A program made the translations under genes and the position numbers. This document shows positions 899-14,431 of a stretch of DNA of 33,732 nucleotides, piece after piece. This DNA is from a virus. The notes under the pieces were generated by a model. The model ran no database searches. It saw nothing but the letters and a program-made list of their open reading frames with translations, and was not told the DNA's origin. The first letter of the stretch is position 1. The number at the start of each line of letters is the position of its first letter. The stretch covers positions 1-33,732 of IMG/VR virus record IMGVR_UViG_3300047325_000009. The stretch is one strand, 5' to 3'.

Positions 899-1315
899 GT
901 GGCGAAAGCTGGCCGAAAGGTTCAATTCGAGCCGGTCGATTTCGTCGCGACGATCTGTGCTCGGATTGCATCAGGGGAAAGCCTTCGCCGCGTTTGTGAG
1001 ACTTCCGGATTTCCCAGCGTCGGAGTGTTTCTTGAGTGGTGTGCGACTGACGCTCACATTGCCGAGCAATACGCTCGCGCCAGAGATACGCAGGCCGATC
1101 ACTACGCGGACGATCTGATCGAGATCGCGGACACCGAGGAAGATCCCCAGCGCGCCAAGGTGCGGATCGATGCGCGCAAGTGGGTTGCATCGAAGCTCAA
1201 GCCCAAGCGCTACGGCGACAAGCTCGACCTCGCGGTGTCGGGTGAGTTGAAAACCGTTCCCGACGATCAGCTAGACGAACGCCTGACCAAGCTGCTGGCG
1301 AAGAATGCCGGCTGA
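899..1315 (+). CDS. terS: terminase small subunit
   Basis: 138 residues starting at GTG 899, four bases after a strong AGGAGGG ribosome binding site (888-894). The small subunit recognises the packaging site on phage DNA and hands it to the large subunit. The N-terminal half (FVATICARIASGESLRRVCETSGFP) has the helix-turn-helix of the Rhizobiales-type phage terminase small subunits. It is followed by FLEWCATDAHIAEQYARARD, an oligomerising helical segment, and a basic stretch with RKWVASKLKPKRYGDK near residue 95, typical of this family. The 3' end overlaps the large subunit gene by 11 nt, which indicates translational coupling. The repeat array immediately upstream is a possible target of this protein. 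Confidence 0.85.
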   Translation: MAKAGRKVQFEPVDFVATICARIASGESLRRVCETSGFPSVGVFLEWCATDAHIAEQYARARDTQADHYADDLIEIADTEEDPQRAKVRIDARKWVASKLKPKRYGDKLDLAVSGELKTVPDDQLDERLTKLLAKNAG

Positions 1316-2051
1316 TCTGTCGGCGCTATCCGTGGCCGAGAAGCGCGAGCTGTTGGCGCTGCTGGAGGAAAAGGAACGGCGCCGTTCGATGCGTCGAATC
1401 GAGACGTACTATCCCGACGAAGGGCCGTTGCGGCGCGAATTATACCCGAAGCATATCGCTTTCTTTGCTGCCGGCGCAGAACATCGAGAGCGACTTATGT
1501 TGGCTGCCAATCGTGTTGGGAAGACCGAGGGAATTGGCGGTTACGAAACCTCTGTGCATCTGACGGGACTGTATCCAAAATGGTGGACGGGCCGAAGGTT
1601 CAACGGTCCAATCCAGGCTTGGGCGGCGGGTGCGTCCAACGAGACGACGCGCGACATCGTGCAGGCCAAGCTGCTTGGCGGCGTTTCATGGGACGGATCG
1701 AGAAAAGGAGTCAAGGGCACTGGATTGATCCCCGGCGAGACCATCGGAACCATTGCGTGGAAGCAAGGCGTTAACGATCTGGTCGATACGGTACAGGTGC
1801 GTCACGTCAGCGGCGGATGGTCTGTGCTGGGGATCAAATCTTACCAGCAGGGGCGCAAATCGTTTGAGGGCACCGAAAAGGATCTCGTGTGGCTGGACGA
1901 AGAGCCGCCAATCGATGTCTACTCGGAATGCCTAGTTCGGACCATGACCACAAACGGGCTCGTACTCCTGACGTTTACGCCACTGGAAGGTATGAGCCAG
2001 GTGGTTATGTCGTTCCTGGAGAATGGCAAGCTGCCGGATAGCATGTCATGA
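1305..2051 (+). CDS. terL: terminase large subunit, ATPase part
   Basis: 248 residues holding the N-terminal ATPase domain of the packaging motor. A Walker A-like motif AANRVGKTEG lies near residues 68-77, the Walker B motif DLVWLDEE at 193-200, and the coupling motif TFTPLEG at 223-229. The protein then stops at a TGA (2049-2051) in the middle of the usual linker to the nuclease domain. The rest of terL resumes in another frame at 2189. In a normal terL, NGKLPDSMS would run straight into RYVGTCTWDDVPHL, so almost nothing of the protein is missing: the gene is interrupted rather than decayed. Either two polypeptides act as a split motor, or the RNA or ribosome bridges the gap. Confidence 0.85.
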   Translation: MPADLSALSVAEKRELLALLEEKERRRSMRRIETYYPDEGPLRRELYPKHIAFFAAGAEHRERLMLAANRVGKTEGIGGYETSVHLTGLYPKWWTGRRFNGPIQAWAAGASNETTRDIVQAKLLGGVSWDGSRKGVKGTGLIPGETIGTIAWKQGVNDLVDTVQVRHVSGGWSVLGIKSYQQGRKSFEGTEKDLVWLDEEPPIDVYSECLVRTMTTNGLVLLTFTPLEGMSQVVMSFLENGKLPDSMS

Positions 2052-2188
2052 GAGCGGCATGGCGCTCTGCCGCTCTCATTGGGCGGATCTAATTTGGCAA
2101 AAAACATCCAGCTACTTTGCGCCACCTGCAACCTCTCAAAAAAGGCTAAGCACCCTCTTGTTTGGGCGCAATCTCTCGGATTTTTGCT
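2046..2188 (+). other. about 146-nt insertion splitting terL, with perfect hairpin
   Basis: Aligning the two terL parts by protein logic places an insertion between ATG (2043-2045) and ATG (2189-2191); joining at these two identical codons gives DSM-SRYV with no loss. The insertion begins with a stop codon. It contains a perfect 11-bp stem, ATGAGAGCGGC (2048-2058) paired with 2069-2079 around a 10-nt loop, and a second 7-bp stem TTGCGCC (2117-2123) with GGCGCAA (2165-2171). A TAATTTGGCA 10-mer at 2090-2099 recurs in gene 26001-30974. Length is not a multiple of three. It is too short for a usual group I intron. A remnant intron, a translational bypass element and a simple split of the gene are all possible; I cannot decide. 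Confidence 0.6.
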
Positions 2189-3952
2189 ATGAGCCGGTAC
2201 GTGGGCACCTGCACGTGGGATGATGTTCCGCACCTATCCCAGCAGGCCAAGGATGAGCTTTGGGCTTCAATTCCGCCATTCCAGCGTGACGCGCGATCTA
2301 AAGGCGTTCCCCAGCTCGGTAGCGGCAGCATCTACCCTGTCGGCGAGTCCGATATCACCTGCGTGCCTTTCGACATCCCCGCTCACTGGAAGCATGTTTA
2401 CGCGATGGATGTAGGATGGAATCGCACGGCAGTCCTTTGGGGTGCGCTGGATAGTGAGGCTGACGTGCTGTACCTCTACAGCGAGCATTATCGAGGTCAG
2501 GCAGAACCCGCTATCCATGCACAGTCCATTAGAGCGCGAGGGGCATGGATACCCGGCGTGATTGATCCTGCCGCCCGAGGCCGCGCTCAAACAGATGGGC
2601 AACAGCTTTTGGTGGTTTATCAGGAATTGGGCCTTAACCTGACAATCGCAAATAACGCAGTGGATGCGGGAATATATCAAGTTTGGACAAGACTATCCAC
2701 TGGTCGCTTGAAAGTGTTTTCGACACTTCAAAGTTTCTTTGGGGAGTATCGACTTTACCGGCGAGACGAAAAAGGGAAAATCGTCAAGGAGTCAGACCAT
2801 TTGATGGATTGCTGCTTCGCCCCGGAGACAATGGTCTGGACCGATAAAGGTCTCCGTCCTATCTCTGCATTGGATGGCACGAGCGGGAATGTGTATTCGA
2901 TCGATGGAGAAATCCTGCCTTATATCGCGTGTCGAATGACTGGGAAAAATCGTCGTCTTTTGACCGTTTCATTTTCCGATGGGACCGAAATTCGGTGCAC
3001 TCCCGATCATAGATTCCTCACGCCAAATGGGTGGGTGCCGGCAATTGATCTTATGGGCGCCGAATGTTATACCTCTGTATCTAATGGAAACAGAGGCGCA
3101 TCGTGGACCCAACAATTATCAACCAAAGATGCCAGGAGTTTCGCGGGACAAGGTATTATCTTTGCGGAAAATATTTTACCCGAAACGGGGATTTGCTCCA
3201 TCGAGCGGTATGGGCTTTCAACAACAGCTGGGCCGGAATACCAAAAGGTTTCCATGTCCATCACAAGGACCATGATCGAGCAAACAACCGCGCAGATAAT
3301 CTCGAATTGGTCGAAGCCTCTGCGCATTTGTCGCGCCACCATACGGGCCACAGTCGAGCTATTACGCTCAAAGCTCTGCAAAAAGCTGCAGGGTGGCACG
3401 GAAGCGATGAAGGCAAGATATGGCACAGGGGGCATTACGCGAAGAACGCGGATCTTCTCCACGTCATCGGAGAATTCCAATGCGTTGAATGCGGCGCTCC
3501 TTACAACGCTCAAATCAATGGGCGCAACAAATTTTGCTCAAACAATTGCAAGACACGTTATCGGCGCAGATCAAAAGTGGACGATGCGCCTCGAAATTGT
3601 GTCGTATGCGGTGTCGAGTTTATTAGCAACAAGTACAGCAAAACCAAAACATGCGGCTCAATCTGCCACGGTGTTCTGTCTGGACGTTCTAGACGAGGGG
3701 CATCGAAGCGAGGTTTATTGCCTGACGGTCCCAAAAAATGAGGCCTTTGCCGTTGGGACTGGCGGCATTATCGCGCATAACTGCCGCTACATGTGCATGA
3801 GCGGGATTGACCTTGCATCGTTCCGCCCAATGGAAGACTTCAAGCAGCGGTTCGGCATCAAGCCCCAACATACCGTGGAATACGATCCGTTCTCCCGCGA
3901 CCGTGTAACCGGCGGCCAGCAGCAACCGGGATCGCGCCACGTCGTCGGCTGA
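2189..3952 (+). CDS. terL: terminase large subunit, nuclease part, with intein
   Basis: 587 codons: 208 extein codons, a 323-codon intein (2813-3781) and 56 extein codons. The spliced product carries the RNase H-like nuclease that cuts concatemers. WDDVPHL, QRDARSKGVPQLGSG and IYPV match terL linker sequences; acidic nuclease residues are visible in YAMDVGW, GVIDPA and SDHLMD. The intein sits right behind the last of these, a typical highly conserved intein site. ATG 2189 is chosen because MSRYVG continues the broken ATPase part; the frame is also open from a TTG at 2162. The ribosome binding site is weak (CGGA about 8 nt upstream). Codons near the intein are unlike the GC-ending codons of the virion genes. 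Confidence 0.85.
   Translation: MSRYVGTCTWDDVPHLSQQAKDELWASIPPFQRDARSKGVPQLGSGSIYPVGESDITCVPFDIPAHWKHVYAMDVGWNRTAVLWGALDSEADVLYLYSEHYRGQAEPAIHAQSIRARGAWIPGVIDPAARGRAQTDGQQLLVVYQELGLNLTIANNAVDAGIYQVWTRLSTGRLKVFSTLQSFFGEYRLYRRDEKGKIVKESDHLMDCCFAPETMVWTDKGLRPISALDGTSGNVYSIDGEILPYIACRMTGKNRRLLTVSFSDGTEIRCTPDHRFLTPNGWVPAIDLMGAECYTSVSNGNRGASWTQQLSTKDARSFAGQGIIFAENILPETGICSIERYGLSTTAGPEYQKVSMSITRTMIEQTTAQIISNWSKPLRICRATIRATVELLRSKLCKKLQGGTEAMKARYGTGGITRRTRIFSTSSENSNALNAALLTTLKSMGATNFAQTIARHVIGADQKWTMRLEIVSYAVSSLLATSTAKPKHAAQSATVFCLDVLDEGHRSEVYCLTVPKNEAFAVGTGGIIAHNCRYMCMSGIDLASFRPMEDFKQRFGIKPQHTVEYDPFSRDRVTGGQQQPGSRHVVG
2813..3781 (+). other. intein within terL
   Basis: The sequence starts with Cys1 in CFAPETMVWTDKGLRPI (block A). 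It continues with TVSFSDGTEIRCTPDHRFLT (block B, with the TxxH motif) and ends with EVYCLTVPKNEAF (block F) and GGIIAHN followed by Cys (block G, penultimate His and terminal Asn, +1 Cys). All residues needed for splicing are present. Removal joins HLMDC to CRYMCMSG. At 323 residues it is longer than a mini-intein, but the middle (about 3100-3660) does not look like an endonuclease in this frame. In that region the HNH endonuclease is encoded in a different frame, so the intein-frame residues there are an overprinted linker kept free of stops. Confidence 0.88.
3103..3741 (+). CDS. HNH homing endonuclease nested out of frame in intein
   Basis: 212 residues from GTG 3103, preceded by AGAGG six bases upstream, in a different frame from the surrounding intein. 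The HNH_3-type core is clear: LLHRAVWAF, then IPKGFHVHHKDHDRANNRAD (about residues 46-65) and NLELV, giving the His-His-Asn catalytic set. Two Cys4 zinc ribbons follow: CVECG with FCSNNC (127-149), and CVVCG with TCGSIC (166-188), probably for DNA binding. The gene ends at 3741 inside intein block F/G coding sequence. It likely cuts intein-less terL alleles and drives spread of the element. Usually an intein endonuclease is fused in frame; here it must be translated independently. Confidence 0.85.
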   Translation: MDPTIINQRCQEFRGTRYYLCGKYFTRNGDLLHRAVWAFNNSWAGIPKGFHVHHKDHDRANNRADNLELVEASAHLSRHHTGHSRAITLKALQKAAGWHGSDEGKIWHRGHYAKNADLLHVIGEFQCVECGAPYNAQINGRNKFCSNNCKTRYRRRSKVDDAPRNCVVCGVEFISNKYSKTKTCGSICHGVLSGRSRRGASKRGLLPDGPKK

Positions 3953-13690: not shown

Positions 13691-14431
13691 ATGCCCAAAA
13701 CCCCCGAGCAATTGGCTAGGTATGCTGCGACTCAGCGTGAGCGGCTACATGCTATCGCCATTGCGGAGGGGCGCGACCCTACGTTGATCGGTCGGCCACC
13801 GAAGGTCACTCCGGAAGAAAAGCGCGAGAAACGTCGGTTGAAGGCTCTCCGCGCAAACGCAAAGCGACGAGAGAAGAAAATCGCAGCCGGCTGGGTCCCC
13901 TCTAAAGCCGGTGCCAAGCGGCGCCTAACCGACGAAGAGCGTCAAGCCAATCGTATCGAAACCTATAAGCGCTTCCGTGCAAATCATCTGGAAGAACGGC
14001 GGGTTTATGAGAAAGAATGGATGAGGCGCAAGACGATCCAGAACGCAATCGCCGAAGGCCGTTATCCTGGTGCGAAAGGCTATTTGGCCCGCAAGAGCAA
14101 GGAAGATGTTGAAGCGTATCTCGCCGCATGGCGATGCGATGAAGGCAAATTCTATAAGGCGGTAAAGGCGCAGAACTCTCGCTGCAAGAAGTTAGGCGTT
14201 CCCGGCATCCTGAAGCTTCAGGATGTTATGACCGCCTTCGCTGAACAGGGCGGTTGTTGTGCATTTTGCGGGGCCGAGTTCACGGAAGAAAAGCCGGAGA
14301 TTGACCATTGGGTGCCGATATCTAAAGGCGGGTCGAATGAGGGAGCCAACATTCGCCTGATGCACAGCGAGTGCAATAAGACGAAAGGCTCGAAGACCCC
14401 GGAAGAACTCGCCGTGCGATATGCGGCCTAA
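13691..14431 (+). CDS. free-standing HNH homing endonuclease
   Basis: 246 residues. A basic, helical N-terminal half (EEKREKRRLKALRANAKRRE, EERRVYEKEWMRRK) likely contacts DNA. The HNH domain is at the C-terminus: CCAFCGAEF (189-197), EIDHWVPISKGGSNEGANIR (203-222) and HSECNKTKG, with the CxxC pair, catalytic DH, and Asn. It stands alone three bases after the major capsid gene and before the cement protein, where related phages have no gene; it is therefore a mobile insertion. Codon use is less GC-biased than in the virion genes. It probably cleaves the capsid gene 3' end of phages lacking it. Confidence 0.88.
   Translation: MPKTPEQLARYAATQRERLHAIAIAEGRDPTLIGRPPKVTPEEKREKRRLKALRANAKRREKKIAAGWVPSKAGAKRRLTDEERQANRIETYKRFRANHLEERRVYEKEWMRRKTIQNAIAEGRYPGAKGYLARKSKEDVEAYLAAWRCDEGKFYKAVKAQNSRCKKLGVPGILKLQDVMTAFAEQGGCCAFCGAEFTEEKPEIDHWVPISKGGSNEGANIRLMHSECNKTKGSKTPEELAVRYAA

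Follow-up and report, generated by a model that had tools for sequence, protein, structure and literature searches.

A P22/Sf6-type phage whose large terminase is very probably encoded by two separate genes

Introduction

The large terminase (TerL) normally consists of one chain; in current models ATP hydrolysis moves its lid and thereby the nuclease domain. Interruptions of the terL gene have been described in several phages. Splicing of terL has been shown in phage ICP1 (PMC10448857) and is supported by metatranscriptomes in the Jug phages (PMC12363816). In the autographiviruses Lelliottia phage phD2B and phage K1E, terL is likewise present as two ORFs that jointly give the full protein, and the authors' interpretation was an intron carrying a homing endonuclease gene (PMC4246154). 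The nearest precedent for the principle of an enzyme made from two pieces is the ribonucleotide reductase gene nrdA of Aeromonas phage Aeh1, which is split by mobE (Friedrich et al., 2007, as cited in PMC10448857). Our literature search for a terminase split into two polypeptides returned nothing describing such an arrangement.

Here we analyzed a terL locus in viral DNA of 33,732 nucleotides (the window, i.e., the whole stretch under analysis). A first-pass annotation of this DNA had offered an intron, a ribosome bypass or a real two-gene terminase as explanations for the interrupted frame. The last of these fits the evidence, and the first two do not: this P22/Sf6-type phage very probably encodes its large terminase in two genes with a plain 137-nt spacer between them, and the two proteins, translated separately, would rebuild the motor subunit.

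Results

In the window, the 3' end of the small terminase gene overlaps the start of the first large terminase gene, TerL-A, and the second, TerL-B, follows in a different frame (Table 1). TerL-A contains Walker A (AANRVGKTE), Walker B (DLVWLDEEPP) and LTFTP motifs, matches the 261-position family phrog_31467 (2.7e-88), and is up to 66% identical to the N parts of relatives; comparison of its sequence with solved structures gave no match. The protein ends in LPDSMS, followed by a TGA stop at 2049-2051. As had been annotated, terL thus ends at a TGA and restarts in another frame at an ATG (2189-2191) identical to one just before the stop (2043-2045), and the 146-nt interval was confirmed; from TGA to start ATG there are 137 nt.

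Table 1. Features of the terminase region of the window
Feature	Position	Strand	Evidence and remarks
Small terminase gene TerS (Sf6-type)	899..1315	+	PF20901 Sf6_terminase, E 1.1e-35; GTG start behind AGGAGG
TerL-A, first terminase gene: ASCE ATPase core, 248 aa	1305..2051	+	PF03237, 1.7e-12
Interval of 146 nt; intergenic spacer proper 2052-2188 (137 nt)	2046..2191	+	Non-homologous intervals in relatives
Perfect 12-bp hairpin with 8-nt loop, stop codon in 5' arm	2048..2079	+	Arms 2048-2059 and 2068-2079
GGA, putative weak Shine-Dalgarno-like triplet	2178..2180	+	8 nt before ATG 2189; read from the sequence
TerL-B, second terminase gene: ATPase lid, linker, RNase H-like nuclease; intein inside	2189..3952	+	PF17289, 8.7e-6
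Intein in TerL-B, at DHLMDC^C...HN^CRYM	2813..3781	+	PF14890, 6e-9; TIGR01445 and TIGR01443 intein ends
HNH endonuclease ORF within the intein, other reading frame	3103..3741	+	PF13392, 6.3e-11; phrog_15471, 5.8e-46 over 205 aa

The TerL-B frame is open from TTG 2162, and ATG 2189 is most likely the start codon, giving a protein that begins MSRYVGTCTWDDVPHL; this is the start position in split relatives too, where the second protein begins with MSK or MSR. The best solved relative of TerL-B was the P22 TerL nuclease (4dkw, E 1.5e-22), aligned from residue 43. Since the triplet upstream of this start is a weak one, translation of TerL-B may depend on the surrounding RNA, and the 137 nt between the stop and the TerL-B start are too far for simple reinitiation.

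The intein of TerL-B, the boundaries of which were read from the sequence, adjoins the third catalytic Asp. Its frame is uninterrupted across the HNH ORF, which would make this a nested, apparently dual-coding homing endonuclease. In MW202478, where the host gene is a single long terminase CDS, the first 81 residues of the terminase intein are 51% identical to that of TerL-B. Elsewhere in the window, a 246-aa ORF (13691-14431) flanked by structural-looking genes and ending CAFCGAEFTEEKPEIDHWVPISKGGSNEGANIRLMHSECNKTKGSKTPEE appears by eye to be a second, free-standing HNH endonuclease. In genes fractured by a split intein (Dassa et al., 2009), one half of the intein reportedly closes the first ORF and the other opens the second; this candidate was rejected, as TerL-A gave no intein match and TerL-B has only the full intein.

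To place the locus among its relatives, 164 of these were gathered from two viral-contig scans and one genome scan, 151 of them carrying both halves. The terL gene is interrupted at the same point in 36 of the 151 and is a single ORF in the other 115 (37 and 114 in a first scoring, before L121 was seen to be one ORF); since similarity to the window was the basis on which relatives were selected, the split rate of 24% is no population estimate. With regard to genes in pieces, each half has its own stop and start and its catalytic motifs, and homologues exist as the uninterrupted gene. In the inspected relatives the first ORF typically ends shortly after an F(L/M)P.G-like stretch, and the second opens with the start codon and S(K/R)(Y/F)V...W(D/E/N)D(V/A)PHL, or with a lead that is slightly longer; L103, L108, L111 and L124 deviate, with longer first-ORF ends or fragmentary N matches. 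The N half of L108 (2238-3265) itself seems to contain an in-frame interruption of about 1 kb, which could be an intein in the ATPase. The same arrangement is present in a public Manatee Spring podovirus (MW202785), with two annotated large-terminase CDSs 133 nt apart. Together with the 36 split relatives, these two CDSs strongly support a real two-gene terminase.

The DNA between the halves varies widely. Stop-to-start distances in the split relatives range from –8 to 2041 nt and include 69, 76, 133 and 163 nt. The second ORF overlaps the first in several of them (–8 in L110; –4 in L101, L105, L025, L143 and L155) or shares one base with its stop (–1 in L122, L159 and L137), with the junction forms ATGA and TAATG among these overlaps. 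Such short overlaps are the usual form of translationally coupled genes. Between the close relatives L128 and L129, the N and C halves are 90.2% and 92.2% identical and the intervals, of 163 and 76 nt, are unrelated; likewise for L140 and L144, the halves are 83.9% and 82.8% identical and the intervals, of 251 and 190 nt, are unrelated. Free-standing HNH_3+NUMOD4 endonuclease genes lie between the halves in L089 (3475-4000) and L124 (3496-4000), which would fit an origin of some splits through homing endonucleases; such an ORF is absent from the interval of the window and from most others. Other cargo comprises Cpn10 (L156), a GDSL lipase (L012) and ORFs without assignment. A Tad2-like (Thoeris anti-defence) gene is located between the terminase halves at L133:3234-3982 (PF11195, 1.4e-23), and a tRNA gene is located in the interval at L103:357-427. 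In the window itself, the scanned segment of the interval holds no ORF of at least 45 aa, a promoter scan of the interval found none, blastn of the interval against phages gave chance matches only, and no second copy was found in the same record beyond the interval itself and its own palindrome. Because the same split point recurs in dozens of relatives with wholly different DNA between the halves, the gap is best read as an ordinary intergenic spacer. The first-pass annotation had proposed that homologues lacking the insertion between conserved flanks would confirm an insertion; the flanks are indeed conserved, but the interruption is a gene fission, with intergenic space that turns over freely.

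The same comparison bears on the proposal that two terL exons are separated by an intron of group I (or another self-splicing type), short or decayed. Other phages do have group I introns in terL, i.e., ICP1 (PMC10448857) and the Jug phages (PMC12363816), and the split terL of phD2B and K1E was interpreted as an intron (PMC4246154). Here, removal of 146 nt, or of 140 nt as the first-pass annotation had alternatively suggested, would restore the frame. However, a covariance search with the Rfam intron families at gathering thresholds found no intron in either the window or 28 related loci whose terL is interrupted, and a search around the junction with E up to 10 found none. In addition, the intervals of the relatives are unrelated to each other and sometimes negative, and overlapping ORFs are an impossible product of an intron. 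Known group I cores are larger than the 137-146 nt available, in line with the earlier remark that the interval is shorter than typical group I introns. An intron is thus highly unlikely. An interval replaced wholesale between close relatives argues equally against ribosome bypass, as either should keep its structure and frame.

A programmed bypass like that of T4 gene 60 would take the ribosome from ATG 2043 to ATG 2189 over the hairpin, and the identical ATG at both ends and the stop-containing stem on the take-off side are what would suggest it. The perfect stem noticed earlier at the stop codon is real, and measures 12 bp rather than 11; it forms the longest perfect hairpin of the whole window. 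Because stems of at least 12 bp arose in only 2 of 60 dinucleotide shuffles, the hairpin is probably not due to chance. It has no T tract and was not scored as a terminator; the one weak, chance-level match in a terminator scan of the interval came from part of the 3' arm and not from the 12-bp stem. The 7-bp second stem of the first-pass annotation is present but unremarkable, and the overall folding of the interval is not unusual (z = –1.5). Against a bypass, the hairpin appears peculiar to this phage: none was found when it was sought in viral contigs, and of 17 other interrupted loci none had a hairpin of at least 8 bp at this place and only 3 had a matching codon within their last five codons. 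Furthermore, the stop lies two codons after the take-off ATG instead of directly behind it, the landing ATG is the place of second-gene start codons in relatives, and the second gene overlaps the first in several of them. The T4 gene 60 gap is 50 nt, about a third of the 146 nt here. These results make a bypass highly improbable.

We also considered whether terL is simply broken, either as a pseudogene of a defective prophage or through an error of assembly. The exact junction occurs in one contig only and nothing similar to the interval was found, as a broken gene might predict. Against this, both halves retain their full set of catalytic motifs, long structural-looking ORFs follow downstream in the window, and the same split is present in many independent contigs and is under purifying selection. 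For the N and C halves, dN/dS was 0.006 and 0.013 between L128 and L129 and 0.17 and 0.21 between L140 and L144, figures that come from relatives, as comparisons with the window itself were saturated and C-half dS was not estimable. The low values in both halves of both pairs show that purifying selection maintains both halves in split relatives. A broken terL is accordingly very unlikely.

The tree, built from 93 sequences, places the window in a set of 11 whose members, with L121 as the exception, are split, at intervals of –8 to 2041 nt; support is SH-aLRT alone (98), and in a smaller rebuild no starred set (at most half of the rows) holds the window. The AU test rejected a single clade of split terminases (p 7e-5), and 14 state changes are needed on the tree, 4 of them forced by starred branches alone. 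Since the split terminases are not monophyletic, fission, re-fusion or both (or else recombination) occurred repeatedly, and recombination between halves could add to the apparent number of origins. In L121 (3197-4060), the single-ORF terminase of this mostly split group, a long linker has an internal Met (MVEITPSKATIMAGW) that resembles the second-gene start of its split relatives. L121 is probably a re-fused split gene.

We located the cut in the protein with an AlphaFold model of an intact relative, L100 (mean pLDDT 89). The split falls in a low-confidence loop at about 231-239, which follows the helix 222-227 and precedes the strand 241-246. The best full-length structural match of the model was the D6E terminase, in which the split point maps to about residue 192-195; a profile of 46 intact relatives aligns the second-gene start with about residue 195 of the D6E chain, which may carry a few tag residues. 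In D6E TerL, Y213 and R224 belong to the lid, and residues 230-241 form the linker to the nuclease (PMC5727402). As the split precedes all of these, the cut is predicted to lie inside the ATPase domain, between the ASCE core and the lid, so that the second protein would consist of lid, linker and nuclease. The two parts described by the first-pass annotation are therefore as stated, but the boundary it drew between ATPase and nuclease moves to before the lid subdomain. It had also noted that no residue seemed to be lost at the junction. This is weak evidence: alignment with uninterrupted homologues places the junction in a variable linker, where the residue is other than Met in 23 of 23 aligned intact relatives, and a seemingly loss-free junction follows from the split lying in such a linker.

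Discussion

With a two-gene terminase very probable, we infer that in this phage TerL-A and TerL-B are translated separately, associate and serve in packaging. Transcription would probably give a single message from terS onward, from which the two proteins would be translated separately. Removal of the intein from TerL-B would leave a protein of lid, linker and nuclease, and the two proteins would assemble at the portal into one TerL unit, where the first β-strand and the lid helices of TerL-B would complete the ATPase. As the ATPase is divided between them, TerL-A and TerL-B would have to associate if it is to work. The likely origin is a fission in a tolerant surface loop, which in some lineages may have come about through an inserted free-standing HNH homing endonuclease (genes in pieces), and after the split the interval would have become a slot with freely exchanged content. 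Counting against the two-gene reading are the weak GGA at the second start and the unusual 12-bp hairpin at the stop codon.

With phD2B and K1E the window shares the arrangement of terL in two ORFs. In ICP1 and the Jug phages terL is interrupted too, but there the RNA is spliced, as seen by RT-PCR or in metatranscriptome reads, whereas in the window no intron RNA is detectable and the intervals of relatives are non-homologous. Intron and two-gene forms of terL both exist and must therefore be distinguished case by case. MW202785 resembles the window in its homologous halves, split point, interval length and two CDSs, and differs in that its interval is unrelated in sequence and contains a 46-aa ORF; in the literature on MW202785 we found no discussion of its terminase split. 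As in the Aeh1 nrdA/mobE pair, an essential enzyme gene is present as two ORFs, and two of the relatives, L089 and L124, have a gene for an HNH endonuclease between the halves. Aeh1 nrdA reportedly works as two polypeptides, whereas for the split terminase this is a prediction. Unlike nrdA, it is a packaging motor, it is split in many lineages with a highly variable interval, and the interval of the window holds no endonuclease.

A further idea is that fission and cargo insertion strike repeatedly at the split loop of TerL, where separation of the ASCE core from the lid-nuclease is itself selected. We regard this as unlikely. If it were true, the amount of nuclease could, for example, differ from the amount of motor, or the benefit could lie in the packaging operon serving as a landing slot for accessory genes (Tad2-like genes, homing endonucleases).

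For the annotation of phage genomes, short terL interruptions should not default to 'intron', and one half of a terminase may be overlooked or wrongly labelled by gene callers. For the packaging motor, a natural cut between the ASCE core and the lid would show that the covalent link can be dispensed with, and a split TerL would lend itself, as a two-component system, to tests of how hydrolysis is coupled to DNA movement by the lid.
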